A stretch of 64,000 bases of DNA, taken from contig NZ_QJKB01000003.1 in assembly GCF_003201815.1 (NCBI RefSeq), positions 248,001-312,000 on the forward strand. Direction: 5' to 3'. The notes under the pieces were generated by a model, which did not search any database, had not been told where the DNA came from, and saw only the letters and a program-made list of their open reading frames with translations. The stretch's first letter is position 1. Every line of letters begins with the position of its first letter. Source of the DNA: Undibacterium pigrum (GTDB taxonomy: Bacteria; Pseudomonadota; Gammaproteobacteria; Burkholderiales; Burkholderiaceae_D). Of the stretch, positions 3,711 to 35,102 are shown in pieces. The translations under genes and the position numbers were made by a program.

Positions 3711-5543
3711 TCAGTCCTGATTTGACGGATCAGCCGCCAGCGGGATGCAAACGGTGAATTCAGCGCCGCCATCCGGGCGGTTATTTGCCACCAGGCTGCC
3801 ATTCATGGCTTGCACGATGGACGAAGAAATCGCCAGGCCCAGACCCAGTCCATGCCCAATCTCCTTGGTGGTGAAAAAGGGTTCAAACAAATGCCCGGCC
3901 ACATGCTCGGGTATGCCAGTGCCAGTGTCTGTGATACTGATTTTCGCCATTCCCTCTACATTACTAAGCTGGACTTCAACTTCCTTGACGGGACTATTTT
4001 CCACCGCATCCAGGGCATTGCGTATCAGGTTGATCAGGACTTGCTCTATCCTGACTGTGTCGCCCAGCACTTTGACGGGTTCGGCCACGCGCACATGCAA
4101 GTTAACTCCACGCCTGTCAGTTTCGCTACGCAATAAGCTGACAGCAGACTGGATGGCCATCTGCACATCGACCTCGGCAATCGCATTCGGGCTTTTCCTG
4201 GCAAAGCCTTTGAGTTGGGCAATGATGCTACCCATACGTTCGCTGGCATGGCTGATATGTTCCAGGTTAGCCAAAGCCTGCTCTGCCTTGCCGCGGTTCA
4301 TGAAAGTGATGGCGTTGTCGGCAAAGGCGCGTATTGCTGTCAGTGGCTGGTTCAATTCATGGGTGATGCCGGTCGCCATCTGGCCCAGCATGGCCAGTTT
4401 GCCAGCCTGCACCATTTCATTTTGGGTAGAGCGCAACAGGGTTTCCGTATGCTTGAGTGTCAGATAACGGTTTTCAAGTTCTGCGTTTGCCTGCGTCAAT
4501 TGCTGGGTGCGCTCGGCAATATGCAGCTCCAGTTCATCCGCTGCTTTCTTCAAGGCATGTTGTGCCAGCCGCCCCTCCTCCAGCCTGCGGCGACGCTGAT
4601 CAAGCACGGCTGCAAAGGCCAGCGCGATTCCCAATATTAAAGCCACTACCAGGGCTGATTGCAAACCCGCCCGCGTGACTTTGCCCTGATCGGGAAATAA
4701 CATTAACTGCCAGTTTAGTCGCCCTATCGGCCTTTGCAAATATTCATCAAAGCCTTTTTTTTCTGCCAAAGGCAACTCGGAGATTGCTTCTATATTTTTT
4801 CCACCATATTGCAAAGTCGTCTTCAAATCTTGCTGCACTGCTGGCGACAGGCTTTGCAAGCTATGGTATTTCCAGGAACCGCGATTACTCAGGAAGACGA
4901 CGCCATGTCTGTCACTGAGTGCAATGGGTTCTTCGCTACTGCCCCAGGCTTGCTCAAATTCGTTGAGAATGATTTTGACGGCAATCACCCCTATCGGTGC
5001 CTGCGTCCCCCGTTTGCTACCAGGTGGATAGACAGGCTGGGAAATAAAATAGCCTGGGATATTCGTGGTATTGCCTATCGCATAAAAATGACCGGGCCTG
5101 AGCTGCTTCAGTGCTTCAGAAAAATAAGGTCTGAAGGCAAAATTCTGTCCCAGATAAGTTTGTGCAGTATTCCAGTTACTGGCGGCGATAGTATTGCCCT
5201 GCACGTCCATGAGATAAATCGCCGCTACCTTGGCTTGCTCAGCCAGCTCTTGCAAACTCAGGTTCAGGGCTTGTATCTGACTGGCATCGTTCTTATGCAG
5301 CAAAGCCTCTGCCGTCAGTGGCAGATAAGAAATGGCAAAAGGCAGGGTTTCATAACGCTCCAGTACTGACTCAATATCAAGAGCGATGATCTGCAATTGC
5401 CGGTCTCCAGCCTGGCGGTTATTTTCCCTGGCGATGCTGGCAGCGACAAAATAGCTGGCCAGCACCAGCGCAATGCTCACCACAGCCACGCAGATAAAAA
5501 TCAGGCGTCGTTGAAGGACACTGTCAGTACGCGGCGCCGTCAC
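3711..5543 (-). CDS. DctB-like membrane sensor histidine kinase
   Basis: A 610-residue kinase with TM1 (about 13-35), a periplasmic double-Cache (PDC) domain (about 36-290), TM2 (about 296-314), a coiled coil (320-385), an H-box with H395 in TGITHELNQP, and a HATPase with N box LINLIRNALDAV, G1 DTGTGIP and G2 GLGLGLAIS. This is the DctB architecture that senses C4-dicarboxylates in other bacteria. No dicarboxylate transporter is nearby, so the ligand here is unknown and is more likely linked to the adjacent ABC importer. It starts with GTG at 5541-5543, without a clear Shine-Dalgarno, three codons after and in the same frame as the stop of the Cache gene. Confidence 0.87.
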   Translation of the reverse strand: MTAPRTDSVLQRRLIFICVAVVSIALVLASYFVAASIARENNRQAGDRQLQIIALDIESVLERYETLPFAISYLPLTAEALLHKNDASQIQALNLSLQELAEQAKVAAIYLMDVQGNTIAASNWNTAQTYLGQNFAFRPYFSEALKQLRPGHFYAIGNTTNIPGYFISQPVYPPGSKRGTQAPIGVIAVKIILNEFEQAWGSSEEPIALSDRHGVVFLSNRGSWKYHSLQSLSPAVQQDLKTTLQYGGKNIEAISELPLAEKKGFDEYLQRPIGRLNWQLMLFPDQGKVTRAGLQSALVVALILGIALAFAAVLDQRRRRLEEGRLAQHALKKAADELELHIAERTQQLTQANAELENRYLTLKHTETLLRSTQNEMVQAGKLAMLGQMATGITHELNQPLTAIRAFADNAITFMNRGKAEQALANLEHISHASERMGSIIAQLKGFARKSPNAIAEVDVQMAIQSAVSLLRSETDRRGVNLHVRVAEPVKVLGDTVRIEQVLINLIRNALDAVENSPVKEVEVQLSNVEGMAKISITDTGTGIPEHVAGHLFEPFFTTKEIGHGLGLGLAISSSIVQAMNGSLVANNRPDGGAEFTVCIPLAADPSNQD

Positions 5544-5549
5544 AAGTAC

Positions 5550-6008
5550 TTACTTATAGATACCGCAGTTGATAACAATGTCTTCATACTTTTCAAAGTA
5601 CATGGATTTTTGCTCTATTTGTTTAGACACAGGATTAACGAATTTATAGTCTTGCCAGCCTTTACCCTTGGTCTTGGCAAGCTCCATGCGCTCACGCACA
5701 AACAGCTTGCCATCGGCATCTTTCAAATCCATCAAGTCTTTACCCTGCATCTTGGCATTGGCACCGTGAGCCAGGTTCTTGCCATTCATGTCATTGATGG
5801 TGACATACAGGTCACGATCGCGGAAAGGCCCCTGCAGATTATTCACGTCAGCAAAAGTCTTGTCTCTGCCATTCGCCTTGATACTGGCGATCACTTTTTG
5901 CACCATGGCGACTGCCTCGGTTGCCGTGCCATGAGCACTTTGCGCGTGACTGGACGCGCCCAGCAAGAAAACCAATCCCGCTACTACAATTCGTACGAAT
6001 TTCAGCAT
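5550..6008 (-). CDS. Secreted single-Cache-domain protein
   Basis: A 152-residue protein with a signal peptide (MLKFVRIVVAGLVFLLGASSH, cut after AQS or HAQ) and a Cache-like domain recognisable by LYVTINDMNGKNLAHGANAKM and DLMDLKDADGKLFV...GKGWQDYKFVNP. Free periplasmic Cache proteins are thought to bind small molecules and may present them to a sensor. Its position directly in front of the DctB-like kinase, whose own sensor is also Cache-type, suggests an accessory ligand-binding role (inference). The stop codon is followed after only two sense codons by the kinase GTG in the same frame. Confidence 0.75.
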   Translation of the reverse strand: MLKFVRIVVAGLVFLLGASSHAQSAHGTATEAVAMVQKVIASIKANGRDKTFADVNNLQGPFRDRDLYVTINDMNGKNLAHGANAKMQGKDLMDLKDADGKLFVRERMELAKTKGKGWQDYKFVNPVSKQIEQKSMYFEKYEDIVINCGIYK

Positions 6009-6087
6009 GATGTCTCTCCTTATGATTTTTATGGGCGCGTCCGTGTTTCTACTTCTTACTCCTTACTTCCTGCCTCCAACTTACTGC

Positions 6088-6906
6088 TCAATCTACTGCC
6101 GCCATCTTCAATTCATCATTGTGATGTCTTTGCTGCTCTTCCATGACCAACTGTCCCAGCTCACGTTTCAAGGCATTGAAGCCGGTTGAGGAAGGATCAC
6201 GTGAACGTGGCAATTCAACGATCAAATCCTTTTTCACCGTACCTGGCCGGTAAGTCATGACGATGATACGATCAGCCAGATAGATTGCTTCTTCTATACT
6301 ATGTGTCACAAAGATGATGGTTTTCTTCAGTTCTGACCAGATGCGCAACAACTCGTCCTGCAAGTTACTGCGTGTCAGGGCATCCAGTGCACCGAAGGGC
6401 TCATCCATTAACATAATAGGCGAATCCAGCGCCAATACACGGGCAATTGCAACGCGCTGACGCATACCACCGGACAAGTCCTTGGGAAAGCGTGCCTTGA
6501 AATCACTCAGACCCAGCATGGCCAGCAGGCTGGCGACTCGCTGCTGGATTTCTGCCTTGCCCATGCCCTTGATTTCCAGACCAAAGGCAATATTCTGCTC
6601 GACTGTCATCCAGGGGAAAAGTGCATATTCCTGGAACACCATGCCACGGTCAGGGCCGGGAGCATTGACCTTTTGACCATTGGCAATAATATGGCCGGAG
6701 GTCGGCAAGGAAAAGCCAGCAATAGCATTCAGCAAAGTCGACTTGCCGCAGCCCGATGGTCCAAGCAGGCAAACGAACTGGCCTTCCGGTATCTCCAAAT
6801 TGATATCGCGCAAGGCCACGACTTCTTTGTCAGCGGTCTTGAAGATCTTGTTCACGCCTACGATGTCAATATGGGTAGGGTTCGTTTCAATATGAGTAGA
6901 GTTCAT
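6088..6906 (-). CDS. NitT/TauT-family ABC transporter ATP-binding protein
   Basis: A 272-residue ABC ATPase of the nitrate/sulfonate/taurine class. Walker A is GPSGCGKST, the Q-loop is VFQEYALFPW, the signature is LSGGMRQRVAIARVLA, Walker B is PIMLMDEPFGALD and the switch histidine is in FVTHSIEEA. The start chosen is the ATG at 6904-6906, one base after the permease stop, with GGAG inside the end of the permease gene. An in-frame ATG at 6924 would overlap the permease. With the permease and binding protein upstream it forms a complete importer; the substrate cannot be deduced (SsuB/TauB/NrtD-like sequences transport sulfonates, nitrate, pyrimidine precursors and others). Confidence 0.9.
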   Translation of the reverse strand: MNSTHIETNPTHIDIVGVNKIFKTADKEVVALRDINLEIPEGQFVCLLGPSGCGKSTLLNAIAGFSLPTSGHIIANGQKVNAPGPDRGMVFQEYALFPWMTVEQNIAFGLEIKGMGKAEIQQRVASLLAMLGLSDFKARFPKDLSGGMRQRVAIARVLALDSPIMLMDEPFGALDALTRSNLQDELLRIWSELKKTIIFVTHSIEEAIYLADRIIVMTYRPGTVKKDLIVELPRSRDPSSTGFNALKRELGQLVMEEQQRHHNDELKMAAVD

Positions 6907-29678: not shown

Positions 29679-29858
29679 ATGGCTACTTTTGTTGATTGTC
29701 CCACCTGCAAAACCAGGGTGGAGTGGAAAGAAGAAAACCGCTGGCGTCCTTTTTGCTCTGAACGCTGCAAACAAATCGACTTGGGTGCCTGGGCAGAAGA
29801 GAAATACACGATACCTGCAGTCAATTTACCTGAAGACCCGGAGGAACTGGCTGAATAA
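29679..29858 (+). CDS. yacG: DNA gyrase inhibitor YacG
   Basis: 59 residues: [18 protein letters not shown] then [26 protein letters not shown] and an acidic tail. The C-X2-C...C-X3-C zinc finger and the WRPFCSxRCKxIDLGxW motif identify YacG. It lies two bases after zapD in the conserved coaE-zapD-yacG order and converges on the TyrR-like gene 66 bases away. Confidence 0.95.
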
Positions 29859-29924: not shown

Positions 29925-31481
29925 CTAACGTTTTTGCGGGATACCGTATTTACGCAGCTTGGTGGCAATCATGGAATGCGAAGTTGCCAGACGTGTCGCC
30001 AGCTTGCGGCTGGACGGATATTGTGGATACAGGTTTTCCAGCAAACTGCGCTCAAAGGCATTCACCGATAATTCCCAGCTTTCAGTAGTATCGCTCTTCA
30101 CCACTTCTGCCGTGATACTGCCTTCGGCCCAATCAAGGTCGGCCGCTTCCAGCACGCGCTGATCTGACATGGTAATCGCACGAAACACCACATTCTGCAA
30201 TTGCCTGACATTACCTGGCCAATGATTGGATACCAGGGCTGCACAGGCCGATGAATTCAAACGGCACACCGGTTTTTGCGCCTGGGTGCAGGCGCGCTCT
30301 ATGAAATGCCTGGCCAGTGGCAGGATATCGTCAGGTCGTTCACGCAGGGCTGGCATTTCCAGATGCAATACATTCAGGCGGTAAAACAGGTCTTCACGGA
30401 AACTGCCTTCCTGCACCATCTTGCGCAAGTTCCTGTGGGTGGCGCTGATGATGCGCACATTCACCTTGACCTCTTTATCGCTGCCTATGCGGCGGAACTT
30501 GCCGTCATTCAGGAAGCGCAGGAGCTTGGCTTGCAGGTATAGCGACATCTCGCCTATCTCATCGAGAAAGACCGTGCCGCCATCTGCCATTTCAAACAGG
30601 CCAGGCTTGCCGCCGCGCTGGGCACCGGTGAAAGCGCCGGACATATAGCCAAATAATTCGCTCTCGGCCAGGCTTTCTGGCAAGGCTGCGCAATTCAGTT
30701 CCAGGAAAGCCGCATTGCTGCGGCCACTGACACCGTGGCAAGCCTGGGCCAGCAATTCCTTGCCGGTACCGGTCTCGCCTGTGATCAGCAAAGGCGCATC
30801 AACCACGGCCACGCGCGCGGCCTTGGTTTTCAGGCTACGTATCTGTTCTGATTCACCGATGATGAAATGAAAGCCGCTGCCTTCTGAGTGCTGCAGGGCA
30901 TGCAGGCGGCCACCTATGCGGGTGGGTGCGTGAAAGGTCAACACGGCACCTACCGAGCGGCCATGGGTAATATCGACGCCCTGGGGCTCTGATACTGGCG
31001 TCACGTCCATGAAATAAGGTTCGCCATTGAGGCTGACTTCACGGCTGGGCAGGCGGAAACCGCAATTGACCAGCTCTTCCTGTATGCCAGCATCGTCAAG
31101 CACCTGGTTCAGGCTGCGCTGGCACAGGCTGGACTCGCTCATGCGGGTTGCCGTGGCTGCAGCGACATTGGCAATCACAATATGGCCGCTGGCATCTATC
31201 GCCAAGACCGGGTCCTCCATGACGGCCATCATGGTGTCGAGATTGAGACGGCGACGTATGCCGGGCAAAACATCCAGCACCTTGATTTCACCTACCCCGC
31301 GTACAGACTGGCAGTCAGCCTGCAATGAGGGGAGCATGAATTCCAGCAGTTCAGGGCTGTCGATATAGATATTGGGTGGATCAACTTCAACCGCCACCAC
31401 ATTGAGCCCACGACGCGCCAATACCGCCAGTATTTCGTGGGCAATACCTACTCTGTCCTTGAACTGGATATTGATGCGCAT
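29925..31481 (-). CDS. TyrR/PhhR-family sigma-54-dependent transcriptional regulator
   Basis: 518 residues with the TyrR domain order: ACT (1-75, MRINIQFKDRVGIAHEILAVLARRGLNVVAVEV), PAS (about 80-185), AAA+ with Walker A GETGTGKE (235-242), GAFTGA (282-287) and Walker B GGTVFLDEIGEM, and a C-terminal HTH (SSRKLATRLATSHSMIATKLRKYGI). E. coli TyrR lacks a functional GAFTGA, while PhhR-type proteins keep it and activate sigma-54 promoters; this one keeps it. ACT domains bind amino acids. It is last in the alr-dadA-Rrf2-like-tyrR run, 55 bases after the Rrf2-like gene, and is the obvious candidate activator for that operon (inference). Confidence 0.88.
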   Translation of the reverse strand: MRINIQFKDRVGIAHEILAVLARRGLNVVAVEVDPPNIYIDSPELLEFMLPSLQADCQSVRGVGEIKVLDVLPGIRRRLNLDTMMAVMEDPVLAIDASGHIVIANVAAATATRMSESSLCQRSLNQVLDDAGIQEELVNCGFRLPSREVSLNGEPYFMDVTPVSEPQGVDITHGRSVGAVLTFHAPTRIGGRLHALQHSEGSGFHFIIGESEQIRSLKTKAARVAVVDAPLLITGETGTGKELLAQACHGVSGRSNAAFLELNCAALPESLAESELFGYMSGAFTGAQRGGKPGLFEMADGGTVFLDEIGEMSLYLQAKLLRFLNDGKFRRIGSDKEVKVNVRIISATHRNLRKMVQEGSFREDLFYRLNVLHLEMPALRERPDDILPLARHFIERACTQAQKPVCRLNSSACAALVSNHWPGNVRQLQNVVFRAITMSDQRVLEAADLDWAEGSITAEVVKSDTTESWELSVNAFERSLLENLYPQYPSSRKLATRLATSHSMIATKLRKYGIPQKR

Positions 31482-31536
31482 GCGTTGCTTTGTAATGAAA
31501 CGATGAAAGTCTGATCAAGTATGATTAATGTACGGA

Positions 31537-32100
31537 TTAATACGGTTCCGGGATATAACCACGTGGGCGGGCATGCTGGCGGCGGAAGGAGCTATTCGAT
31601 GCCAGGCCACGCAAGCGCCCCAGGTCAAATTGTTCCAGTTGCTGCAAGACTGCGCGATTGAGCGTCATTTTAACTTGCATCATCAACAAGTCTACACTTT
31701 GCTGGCTGGAAGTACGGGTATTGCGTCTTTCCTGAGGCACTTCCGCCTCTTCGTCTTGCGCAGCTTTTTCAATTGCCTTGGCAGCGGCACGCTCTTCGGC
31801 ATTGACGAAGCTGCGATACACATCAGCCAGGGTGATGATGCCGTTGCAATCACGACAGTGCCAGGCATCTTTCTCCTTACTGTCGCGGCTGACCAGGGCA
31901 TCCTTGCTCAACACTGCCAGTATAGAGCGTATCAGGCGCGGGGTCTTGCCTGTTGCCTGTGCCAGCGCGGTGATATTCGCAGTACGCGGCATTACCATCA
32001 TGATTTGTGCCAGTAACTCGATGGCGGTAAAAAACCGCGCATTCAGGTTGGCATCAGAAAAGACCTGGGTTGATGACAGTAATTCTTCAATTGCATTCAT
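31537..32100 (-). CDS. Rrf2-like winged-helix transcriptional regulator
   Basis: 187 residues. The N-terminal winged helix-turn-helix (about 20-100) reads [12 protein letters not shown]...[31 protein letters not shown]...[12 protein letters not shown], an Rrf2-like pattern. A CRDC pair sits near residue 82, not the three-cysteine Fe-S pattern of IscR/NsrR. The C-terminal half is Glu/Arg-rich and unrecognised. The start overlaps the dadA stop (ATGA, 32097-32100), so it is coupled to D-amino acid dehydrogenase and probably belongs to its control. Confidence 0.7.
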
Positions 32101-33389
32101 GCCAACTCCTTGTGTATAAAAATTGGACTGTTGACGCTGCCGTAACGGTCCATGAATAAACCTTCAGTAGAAATAGCCGGGCGCTTGCCAGAAACCACAT
32201 CAGCAATGAACTGGCCAGAACCGCAAGCCATGGTCCAACCCAGCGTGCCATGACCGGTGTTCAGGTACAGATTGCGATAAGGCGTAGGGCCAATGACAGG
32301 GGTACCATCCGGCGTCATTGGACGCAGGCCAGTCCAGAATTCGGCTTTGCTGACGTCGCCACCACCAGGGAACAAATCAGTCACTGAATGCTCCAGGGTG
32401 GCACGGCGGTCTGCACGCAGGTCGAGGTTATAGCCAGTGATTTCGGCAGTACCACCGACACGTATGCGGTCGCCCAGGCGGGTAATTGCGACTTTATAGG
32501 TCTCATCCATGACCGTCGACTCCGGCGCTTTTTGTGCGTCGGTAATAGGGACGGTAATTGAATAGCCCTTGATAGGGTAAACAGGAATCTTGATGCCCAA
32601 TTCTTTCAAGAGAATCGGGGAGTAACTGCCAAGTGCCAATACGAAACAGTCTGCCTTGATCTCACCTTCCGAGGTGATGACAGAAGTGATGGTATCGCCG
32701 CTCTTGACCAGTCTTTGTATGGTGACGCCGTACTTGAACTGGGCACCCAGTTCTTGCGCGAATGTGGACAGGCTCTGGGTGAACTTGAAGCAGTCGCCGG
32801 TTTCATCGCCCGGCAAACGCAGGGCACCGACAAATTTATCCTGCACATTGACCAGTGCGGGTTCCACTTTCAGGCAACCGGCCTTGTCCAGTTTTTCATA
32901 GGGCACATCGTAACGTTTGAGGATGGCGATATCGGCCTCTGCACCATCCAGTTGTTGCTGGTTGCGGAACAGTTGCAGCGTACCCTGGGTACGTTCGTCA
33001 TAGCTAATGCCGGTATCGCTGCGCAGTTGTTGCAAAACATCGCGGCTGTATTCAGCCATGCGCAACATGCGGCCTTTATTGATTTCATAGCGTTTGCTGG
33101 TGCAGTTCATCAGCATTTGCGTGACCCAGCGCCACATGGTCGGGTCAAAGCTCGGACGTATTGCCAGTGGACTATGCTGCATCATCAGCCATTTGATGGC
33201 TTTCAGGGGCACGCCAGGGCCCGCCCATGGCGCTGAATAACCTGGAGAGACTTCGCCTGCATTGGCATAACTGGTTTCCAGGCCTGCGGCTGGCTGACGT
33301 TCGATAACGGTGACTTCATGGCCTGCCTTGGCAAGGTAATACGCTGACGCTGTACCGATAACACCTGCACCCAATATAACTATTTTCAT
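32097..33389 (-). CDS. dadA: D-amino acid dehydrogenase
   Basis: 430 residues of the DAO/DadA family. The N-terminal FAD dinucleotide fold is [29 protein letters not shown], followed by [30 protein letters not shown] and the C-terminal [16 protein letters not shown]...[16 protein letters not shown]. It oxidises D-alanine and other D-amino acids to 2-oxo acids and passes electrons to the respiratory chain. Downstream of alr by 100 bases containing a stem-loop, and coupled to the Rrf2-like gene. GGGAG precedes the ATG by eight bases. Confidence 0.94.
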
Positions 33390-33448
33390 TTTATTTCTCC
33401 CGGCTCACTGCTGGATTAATTTACTTGTCTGTTGTGTTCTTTGTTTGT

Positions 33449-33478
33449 TCTGGCTGCTTGCTCAGGCAAGCGGCCAGA
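33449..33478 (-). other. Intercistronic stem-loop between alr and dadA
   Basis: TCTGGC-T-GCTTGC, loop TCAG, GCAAGC-G-GCCAGA: a 13-bp stem with one G/T pair and a tetraloop. No T-run follows on the minus strand, so RNA processing or stability is more likely than termination. Confidence 0.6.
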
Positions 33479-33489
33479 CATATGAAGGC

Positions 33490-34602
33490 TTAATTGCTAT
33501 AAGTACGCTCATAGCGGCCTCCCAGACTGGTCAGGATTTCATAGCCTATGGTGTTGGCACGTGCTGCTACCTGATCTACCGTGTTGTCTGCAGAAATCAG
33601 TTCTACCAGTGCGCCGGGTTGCAGATGTTCTGCAGCGACTGCAGTCACATCCAGAGTGATGGTGTCCATCGATACATTGCCGACCATGGGTACTGCCTGG
33701 CCAGCAATATGGGCAATGCCACGATTGCTGAGGCTGCGCATCCAGCCATCTGCATAACCTACACCAACGGTGGCTATGCGGGTGGTCTGGCTGCTGCGCC
33801 AGGTCGAGCCATAACCGACACCGGTGTCAGCCGGAATTTCACGGGTTTGTATGATGCGGCCTTGCAGGTGGGCAACGGCACGCAGGGGATTAGCCTGGCC
33901 AGCGACAGGGGCAACCCCATACAAGGCAGCGCCAGGACGGGCCATGTCGAAATGAAAGTCTTTACCCAGGAAGATGCCGGAAGAATTGGCCAGACTGGCT
34001 GGCAAGCCCTGGCAAGCCGGGATTTGTGTGCGCAAGGTATTAAAGGCTTGTAACTGCCGCTGATTGACCGGGTTAGCCTGGTCTTCTGCACTGACCAGAT
34101 GGCTCATGATGTACTGCAGGTCTATGCCCTCGCTGAGGCTGGCATCAGCCTGCCATTGCTGTACCTCGACGGCAGACAAACCCATTCTGGCCATGCCGGT
34201 ATCAACTTGCACAATGGCTGGCAAGCGGCGCTGTTCCTTTTGCGCCAATGCACGCCAGGCCAGCATTTGTGGCAGGCTATTCAATACCGGTGTGCAGCTA
34301 TGTTCCAATAGTTCCGCCTCATGCCCAACAGGTGAGCCATGCATGACATAGATGGCAGCATCTGCAGGCAAATGCTCACGAATAATGATCGCCTCTTGCA
34401 AATGCGCGACAAAAAAATCGCGGCAATCTTCTGCATACAAGGCTTGCACTACCGGTACAGCGCCGAGGCCATAGGCATCTGCCTTTACTGCAGCACCACA
34501 TTTCGCAGCACCCAGTAAGCCGCGCAGCAGACGATAGTTATAACGTATTGCCTGTAAGTCAATACGAAGTACTGCACCTGCCATTCCAGCAACTTGCTTC
34601 AT
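33490..34602 (-). CDS. alr: Alanine racemase (catabolic DadX-type by context)
   Basis: 370 residues. PLP lysine K40 in AAVKADAYGLG, catalytic tyrosine in VGYGSTWRSS, and C-terminal SMDTITLDV and GALVELIS. It interconverts L- and D-alanine. The pairing with dadA implies the catabolic isozyme (DadX): L-alanine is racemised, then oxidised by DadA. A perfect sigma-54 promoter lies 41-56 bases upstream. GGAG precedes the ATG by nine bases. Confidence 0.94.
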   Translation of the reverse strand: MKQVAGMAGAVLRIDLQAIRYNYRLLRGLLGAAKCGAAVKADAYGLGAVPVVQALYAEDCRDFFVAHLQEAIIIREHLPADAAIYVMHGSPVGHEAELLEHSCTPVLNSLPQMLAWRALAQKEQRRLPAIVQVDTGMARMGLSAVEVQQWQADASLSEGIDLQYIMSHLVSAEDQANPVNQRQLQAFNTLRTQIPACQGLPASLANSSGIFLGKDFHFDMARPGAALYGVAPVAGQANPLRAVAHLQGRIIQTREIPADTGVGYGSTWRSSQTTRIATVGVGYADGWMRSLSNRGIAHIAGQAVPMVGNVSMDTITLDVTAVAAEHLQPGALVELISADNTVDQVAARANTIGYEILTSLGGRYERTYSN

Positions 34603-34642
34603 ATCTCACCACTCCATCGCATCAAAGAAATGCGATTAGTTA

Positions 34643-34658
34643 TGCAATCGTCGTGCCA
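34643..34658 (-). promoter_or_regulatory. Perfect sigma-54 promoter of alr-dadA
   Basis: Minus strand TGGCAC-GACGA-TTGCA: exact match to TGGCAC-N5-TTGCW. Transcription is expected near 34631, giving a leader of about 29 bases with a GGAG Shine-Dalgarno. Confidence 0.85.
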
Positions 34659-34803
34659 CAAAATTTTATTGAAGAAATTCAATGACTTATAGAATTTATG
34701 TCGGAAGCCATTAAATTTCCGTATCGAATTCAATACAGTCTTTGATTTTCTGCGACATTTCAAACTAGAGTCAGCTCTCTACTGCGTACTAAAAACAGCA
34801 CAG

Positions 34804-34841
34804 CGTATTCATTTTAATACAGTGTATTGTTTTAAATACAC
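34804..34841 (-). promoter_or_regulatory. Tandem TGT-N12-ACA-like operator boxes (TyrR-type) upstream of alr
   Basis: Box 1 at 34804-34821 is CGT-ATTCATTTTAAT-ACA (one mismatch); box 2 at 34823-34840 is TGT-ATTGTTTTAAAT-ACA (exact). Both are GTATT-N6-AATAC palindromes, 19 bp apart. They lie about 180-200 bp upstream of the predicted sigma-54 start, as enhancers for an AAA+ activator would. TyrR boxes have the form TGT-N12-ACA; assignment to the TyrR-like protein is inferred. Confidence 0.6.
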
Positions 34842-34994
34842 ACGCATAATAAAATAAAGCACAGATAATCTCAGCCTGAATAGCTGCCGACAATAAGTGA
34901 TACTACGGATTGTTTGTCATAAAAAGACAGTTTGATGACAGCACTCAGGAGTCGCATGACATGAAGTATAGACGTGGGGAAATAAAGTGAAAGT

Positions 34995-35033
34995 CAAAAA
35001 GGGTCAGAGCCGACAAGACATATCAGCTCTGAC
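34995..35033 (-). terminator. mutT: Rho-independent terminator after mutT
   Basis: GTCAGAGC (35003-35010) pairs with GCTCTGAC (35026-35033). On the minus strand the stem is followed by CCTTTTTG. It lies 70 bases after the mutT stop. Confidence 0.7.
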
Positions 35034-35102
35034 AGTCATTGACCATCATTGATCATGATGAAAGAAGGTGGGGACTAATAGCCAGAAAACTGGCAGGTAA
35101 AA

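Follow-up and report, generated by a model that had tools for sequence, protein, structure and literature searches.

A TyrR-like activator and a sigma-54-type promoter at an alanine-catabolism operon of Undibacterium pigrum

What controls an operon that encodes both an alanine racemase and an enzyme that destroys D-alanine, and to which signal would it respond? The question is raised by positions 29925-34841 of a 64,000-nucleotide stretch of Undibacterium pigrum DNA, hereafter the window (G000:C3:248001-312000; genome of 6.4 Mb in 44 contigs; G numbers denote genomes and L numbers relatives' loci). The evidence argues for a self-regulated alanine-catabolism operon under a TyrR-like activator and sigma-54, a reading to which we give a probability of about 0.8. 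Gene calls and Pfam/NCBIfam profiles bear out the four same-strand genes described in an earlier note, which was made from the sequence alone: alr, dadA, a gene for a 187-residue protein and a tyrR-like gene, consecutive on the minus strand with gaps of 100, −4 and 55 bp. These genes and the sites upstream of them are:

33490-34602, minus strand: alr, alanine racemase of 370 amino acids, first gene of the operon (TIGR00492, 247 bits, cut-off 168)
32097-33389, minus strand: dadA, D-amino acid dehydrogenase of 430 amino acids (NF001933, 697 bits, cut-off 383)
31537-32100, minus strand: gene for the 187-residue protein, sharing a 4-bp ATGA overlap with dadA
29925-31481, minus strand: tyrR-like gene, 518 amino acids, with an ACT domain (borderline), a middle region, an AAA+ domain with GAFTGA (PF00158) and HTH_50 (PF18024)
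34643-34658, minus strand: −24/−12 promoter TGGCACGACGATTGCA, 12/12 to consensus, with GG/GC core, starting 56 bp before the alr ATG
34677-34689, minus strand: IHF-like site TAAGTCATTGAAT, with one mismatch to YAANNNNTTGATW, which we take to be the IHF consensus
34720-34737, minus strand: TyrR-type box 3, TGTATTGAATTCGATACG, starting 79 bp upstream of the −24 element
34804-34821, minus strand: TyrR-type box 2, TGTATTAAAATGAATACG, starting 19 bp after box 1 and 163 bp upstream of the −24 element
34823-34840, minus strand: TyrR-type box 1, TGTATTTAAAACAATACA, a perfect box starting 182 bp upstream of the −24 element

The tyrR-like product carries an AAA+ domain (PF00158, 230 bits) in which the GAFTGA loop, Walker A and Walker B are intact, and a helix-turn-helix matching PF18024 (51 bits, cut-off 27); an rpoN gene was found in the window's genome. 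GAFTGA is exact in 46/54 orthologues, the others having GAFSGA or GSFSGA (6) or GAFTSA (1), or being a fragment (one). The racemase scored 167 bits against the model for DadX of enterics (NF002970), below the cut-off of 600. No AsnC-type regulator was found among the four operon genes with Pfam/NCBIfam, a search that did not extend to a distant AsnC gene.

TGGCAC-N5-TTGCA is matched exactly at 23 places in the 6.4-Mb genome (reversed pattern, 0), so that the perfect match before alr is indecisive alone; the argument is carried by conservation and by the neighbouring sites. Among 54 orthologous loci, 50 of them with upstream DNA, 41/50 have a match of at least 11/12 to the sigma-54 consensus ahead of the first operon gene, compared with 6/2000 dinucleotide shuffles and 3/1880 other 450-bp segments of the same loci; at a threshold of at least 10/12 the counts are 44/50, 41/2000 and 31/1880. 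The perfect sigma-54 site said to head the operon was thus confirmed and proved to be conserved. Three 18-bp palindromes of the form TGTATT-N6-AATACA, putative TyrR sites, lie within 240 bp before alr. Two boxes 19 bp apart were found in 32/50 loci and in none of the 2000 shuffles or 1880 segments; the start-to-start spacing of boxes 2 and 3 is 84 bp in the window and mostly 80-84 bp in the genus. An IHF-like site with at most one mismatch to that consensus sequence is present in 41/44 promoters (10% of shuffles), and an exact one in 10/44 (0.7% of shuffles). With box 1 as the anchor of a gapless profile, the letters of the half-sites rise to 2 bits, those of the preceding 75 bp only to 0.03-0.52 bits; this anchoring favours the boxes by construction and the motif was first spotted by eye in the window, whereas the shuffle controls are free of the anchoring bias. 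A later count, with a looser box definition and with ald taken as the first gene in two loci, found a sigma-54 site of at least 10/12 in 35/35 genus loci with upstream DNA, box pair plus third box in 30 and the IHF-like site in 34; for the 15 loci of other genera the figures were 11, 10 and 9.

From these elements the following course of events can be proposed. The TyrR-like protein would sense alanine, probably L- or D-alanine at the ACT domain, and its dimers would bind the three boxes, which start 182, 163 and 79 bp before the −24 element; with the DNA bent at the IHF-like site, the protein would then, at the expense of ATP, drive opening of sigma-54 RNA polymerase at 34658-34643. L-alanine would be turned by Alr into D-alanine, which DadA would oxidise to pyruvate and ammonia. 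As the activator gene is the last of the operon, induction would feed itself.

Several observations weigh against this reading. The ACT match (PF01842, 26.3 bits, E 6.5e-6) is just below the Pfam cut-off of 27. At most one mismatch, the box pattern occurs at 140 places genome-wide compared with 95 in the control, a modest excess, and at most two mismatches give 17 in the window compared with 22 in shuffles, no excess; a wider TyrR regulon predicted from the boxes was dropped on the former figures. Together with the 23 exact −24/−12 matches, these figures leave single sites with little meaning. In four of the 50 loci the first gene is not preceded by a sigma-54 site reaching 10/12: in L092 dadA lies close behind mutT; in L093 tyrR has no adjoining enzyme gene; in L097 tyrR comes first, followed by the alr-dadA-187-residue type; and in L100 (G204) the operon alr, oriented 5153-6229, is missing its N-terminal end. 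It would also be physiologically odd for the only racemase to stand behind a promoter of a type requiring an activator, and sigma-54 dependence, ligand and binding are, for U. pigrum itself, deduced from sequence.

In L100 an N-terminal alr piece (amino acids 7-78, 65% identity) was observed about 3 Mb away on the same contig, and the split looks as if a rearrangement had parted the operon from its promoter. At L094 (G084), tyrR and a gene of the 187-residue type keep the sigma-54 site and the boxes in a unit without any alr, dadA or ald that could be found.

The promoter layout of the window is seen again across its genus and in further genera of the family, and also at the tyrR/dadA loci of Azoarcus and Azospirillum. 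In Azoarcus KH32C a plasmid (L232) carries a dadA-ridA-permease-alr unit that is transcribed away from the tyrR-like gene; relative to dadA, the sigma-54 site (12/12) is at −77 and the boxes are at −256, −237 and −156. On each of two Azospirillum plasmids dadA and tyrR are likewise divergent, a pair of boxes spaced by 19 bp is followed by a third box after 69-71 bp, and the sigma-54 site scores 11/12 or 10/12. Caenispirillum and a Burkholderiales metagenome-assembled genome (MAG) show this layout less completely, with sites of 11/12 and 10/12 and no 19-bp box pair at up to one mismatch in each box. The ridA and amino acid permease genes that stand before alr in the Azoarcus unit recall dadY in Pseudomonas.

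Gene partners suggest which signal the activator responds to. In 51/54 family loci the unit includes an alanine enzyme, either dadA, accompanied or not by alr, or ald. In two loci of another genus of the same family (L101 and L106), ald, a 187-residue-type gene and tyrR follow a 12/12 sigma-54 site with an IHF-like site and the three boxes upstream of it, and no alr or dadA was found there. The L106 Ald matches TIGR00518 (539 bits, cut-off 392), and the L101 gene was recognised by its first 20 residues, identical to the L106 protein. At L093, ald lies 5 kb from tyrR (TIGR00518, 542 bits); its 12/12 sigma-54 site is at −145, and two paired boxes, at −497 and −478, lie 333-352 bp further up than that site. 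One alanine-degrading route swapped for another under the same promoter fits an alanine signal; the replacement of alr-dadA by ald in two relatives points to alanine, and is a new point and in effect a natural experiment on the signal, the ligand itself being deduced.

With the window TyrR, four Azospirillum records share 58-59% identity, Azoarcus 57%, six Pseudomonas proteins 55-57% (three of the six are encoded near gcvP) and one P. aeruginosa record 51%; for a record annotated as phenylalanine hydroxylase regulator the figure is 41%, and for E. coli TyrR 39%. The score of the window TyrR against the TyrR equivalog NF008085, 474 bits, is below the NCBI cut-off of 576. In a tree of 38 proteins, drawn without E. 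coli TyrR, A. brasilense TyrR and P. aeruginosa GcsR and with a long-branch warning for the outer rows, it falls in a clade of 29 (support 96/99) that excludes the proteins of 36-43% identity. This clade includes the dadA-adjoining proteins of Azospirillum, Azoarcus, Caenispirillum and one Burkholderiales MAG, one Thauera protein, at whose locus no alanine-enzyme neighbour was seen, and the six Pseudomonas proteins, of which the three with gcvP nearby are of the GcsR type. By sequence, the window TyrR is therefore nearer the Azospirillum and GcsR-type Pseudomonas proteins than PhhR or TyrR, and the label 'TyrR/PhhR-type with intact GAFTGA' was right about the loop and imprecise about PhhR. The tree also nests the GcsR group inside the dadA-linked group (89/91; long-branch warning), a placement that we do not claim since the alternative of a single clade of dadA-linked, family and Thauera rows was not rejected (approximately unbiased test, p 0.417).

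How much of this control logic was known already? PhhR and TyrR of pseudomonads and enterics combine ACT, AAA+ and a TyrR-type helix-turn-helix, the latter two shared with the window protein, whose ACT match is borderline; they differ from it in their identity (about 39-41%) and in their aromatic amino acid ligands. Their box type, a further likeness, is quoted as TGTAAA-N6-TTTACA (PMC4894688). For Azospirillum brasilense Sp7, the available part of a 2019 paper (PMC6375630) reports that a GAFTGA-bearing TyrR is required for dadA mRNA, that the tyrR mutant has no dadA mRNA and does not grow on D-alanine as sole carbon source, and that the dadA promoter region has three TyrR boxes and −24/−12 elements; sigma-54 dependence was based there on the GAFTGA loop and the promoter sequence. 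The likeness to the window is close: a GAFTGA TyrR-like gene next to dadA, three boxes and −24/−12 elements. The proteins compared were those of the congeners A. lipoferum and B510 rather than that of A. brasilense itself; they are 59% identical to the window's, and their loci have the same layout. In Azospirillum, however, tyrR and dadA are transcribed in opposite directions, and the two congeners have no annotated alr next to them, whereas in the window alr, dadA and tyrR are co-directional, an extra Rrf2-like gene is present and alr is the sole one found in the genus. The text of PMC6375630 does not contain 'alr' and mentions racemases once, in plants. Among the literature matches listed (titles and abstract starts, with subscription journals mostly uncovered), it is the only paper on TyrR control of dadA.

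The second precedent is GcsR of P. aeruginosa, described in 2016 as a TyrR-like activator that responds to glycine and controls the gcs2 operon, with three 18-bp tandem sites and an RpoN site in the part of the paper available (PMC4894688). Like the window system it joins a TyrR-like activator to a small-amino-acid catabolic operon; it differs in the amino acid and in the box, TGTAACG-N4-CGTTCCG compared with TGTATT-N6-AATACA, the P. aeruginosa protein itself lying outside the comparison. The dad locus of Pseudomonas has the same enzymes, DadA and DadX, and an AsnC-type regulator, DadR, unlike the window, as far as the available text goes (PMC9714295); the word 'sigma' is absent from that text. 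Because of the A. brasilense and GcsR precedents the control logic is known in outline. The claim that sigma-54 with an ACT-domain activator would be a different logic thus holds for the promoter, the linked activator, the three boxes and the IHF-like site, and fails on novelty, the logic having been published in 2019 and 2016. What stands is a well-supported sigma-54/TyrR-like alanine operon, a variation on published logic. It outlines an alanine class of TyrR-like activators across alpha- and betaproteobacteria, delimited by promoter layout, gene partners and sequence.

The 187-residue protein, called Rrf2-like in the earlier note, does overlap dadA by 4 bp and has a predicted fold resembling Rrf2/IscR, but scores 14.8 bits against Pfam Rrf2 (PF02082), below the cut-off of 30, and has no Pfam match above cut-off. 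In its structure model (mean pLDDT 74.6, pTM 0.53) the N-terminal half is a winged helix resembling Rrf2/IscR and a long helix forms the C-terminal part, and an unrelated winged helix ties with Rrf2/IscR in the comparison. Rrf2 proteins of the IscR type bind their Fe-S cluster through three cysteine ligands; this protein has two cysteines only (82 and 85), and position 85 is not cysteine in ten other-genus rows. No relatives were found in PDB sequences (E 10) or NCBIfam (E 0.001), nor a second copy in the genome (E 0.01). The gene was not found in 12/36 genus loci with alr-dadA-tyrR, so that the protein is accessory, and its counterparts in 23 other loci are divergent (25-90% identity to the window copy).

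The racemase raises a question of its own. In the window's genome a PF00842 search, like a search with the protein itself, matched only the operon alr. Across 43 genus genomes a match was present in 38, including 35/35 near-complete ones (at least 90% complete, at most 5% contaminated), and the five without a match are 56-89% complete. Exactly one match was found in 37/38, the near-complete G035 having a second, partial piece, and the match lies within 6 kb of tyrR in 38/38. No second racemase gene beyond the operon copy was thus found in the genus with PF00842, a search that did not cover D-alanine transaminase. In other genera, 15/16 tyrR-bearing genomes carry, at a distance from tyrR, a divergent alr of 29-31% identity, and six of the 16 have an alr 56-60% identical to the window's, five of these beside tyrR and one, in G235, on a contig end. 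That the operon racemase is the sole one of the genus is a new point. Because it is the only one found, operon transcription must supply cell-wall D-alanine, which may accordingly depend on sigma-54 in this genus, as judged from sequence. Further features upstream of the boxes are:

34865-34893, minus strand: weak sigma-70-like candidate TTGTCG-N17-GATTAT, a pattern picked by eye after alignment
34891-34908, minus strand: element CCGTAGTATCACTTATTG, the sole window site at up to three mismatches (0.04 expected)
34993-35033, minus strand: intrinsic-terminator-like hairpin in the gap between mutT and the operon, with a 13-bp stem and a T-rich tail (1 found, shuffle mean 0.6; z −6.75 for 34980-35060)

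Six relatives' loci have an exact CCGTAGTWTYACTTATTG; in the window the distance from this element to box 1, downstream of it, is 51 bp.

Three other explanations have to be set against or beside the preferred one. The ligand might be glycine, as for GcsR, or tyrosine or phenylalanine, with the alanine genes as indirect targets; the well-supported clade shared with the Pseudomonas proteins, half of them with gcvP nearby, speaks for this. The alanine enzymes kept in nearly all family loci, and found also beside the Azospirillum and Azoarcus genes, speak against it, as does the D-alanine growth phenotype of A. brasilense in the available text of PMC6375630, and we consider it unlikely. Less probable still is that control lies mainly with the Rrf2-like protein, the TyrR-like gene being a passenger or active on other targets: the predicted DNA-binding fold and the gene start overlapping the dadA stop would suit this idea, which is hard to reconcile with a divergent protein whose gene was not found in a third of the genus loci that keep alr-dadA-tyrR and the same promoter.

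The third explanation is compatible with sigma-54/TyrR-like control and decides only whether the cell wall needs sigma-54. It holds that a weak constitutive sigma-70 promoter, perhaps at 34893-34865, serves housekeeping Alr and the sigma-54 promoter catabolic expression; activator boxes just downstream could also repress the sigma-70 candidate. The single alr found in genome and genus, which should be needed for peptidoglycan, makes such a promoter attractive, and a TTGYYN-N16..18-RAWNAT pair stands at a near-constant position next to CCGTAGTWTYACTTATTG in 11/35 genus loci. That pattern was fitted after seeing the alignment, however, and 24/35 loci lack it; sigma-70 scores of at least 9/12, 140-350 bp upstream of the −24 element, occur in 10/44 promoters compared with 26% of shuffles, and the window has 2 candidates compared with 1.5 expected. 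A conserved sigma-70 promoter upstream of the boxes was therefore rejected, consensus scores being no better than in shuffles, and in the window transcription arriving from mutT should be curbed by the terminator-like hairpin. Two promoters are a tentative option, with a chance somewhat short of even. The stricter possibility, that the divergent alr was lost in the genus and the sole alr is expressed solely from the sigma-54 promoter, with peptidoglycan D-alanine gated by RpoN and intracellular alanine, seems doubtful; if it were true, rpoN or the tyrR-like gene would be essential unless D-alanine were supplied. Either way the locus raises the question of how cell-wall D-alanine is secured from a promoter type silent without its activator while DadA, which destroys D-alanine, is made along with it.

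A stable hairpin without a T-run lies in the alr-dadA gap (33390-33489, minus strand); it was rejected as an attenuator, a like hairpin being confined to the closest relatives (window, L048-L050, L108).

The history of the locus can be read from its neighbours. At the tyrR end the operon is convergent with yacG:

29679-29858, plus strand: yacG, 59 amino acids

Of 30 zapD loci, obtained by searching 60 family genomes, 17 have mutT directly next to yacG (gap 36-479 bp), three have only dadA between the two and three have tyrR after yacG, the remaining seven being unreadable for this arrangement; no sigma-54 site of at least 10/12 was found just upstream of dadA, on its strand, in the three dadA-only loci. 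Orthologues of tyrR (E up to 1e-90) occur in 42/294 family genomes and 6/44 genera, and tyrR has a linked alr in 35/35 near-complete genus genomes. These mixed arrangements in the family and the constancy of tyrR-alr in the genus indicate a slot that is old and variable. Contiguity of mutT and yacG in relatives holds for 17 of the 30 loci, and acquisition of the module as a unit, suggested on that ground, finds little favour. The GC content of the operon genes (0.53-0.57) is close to that of the argJ side (0.53-0.54), and that of the zapD side is lower (0.47-0.50).

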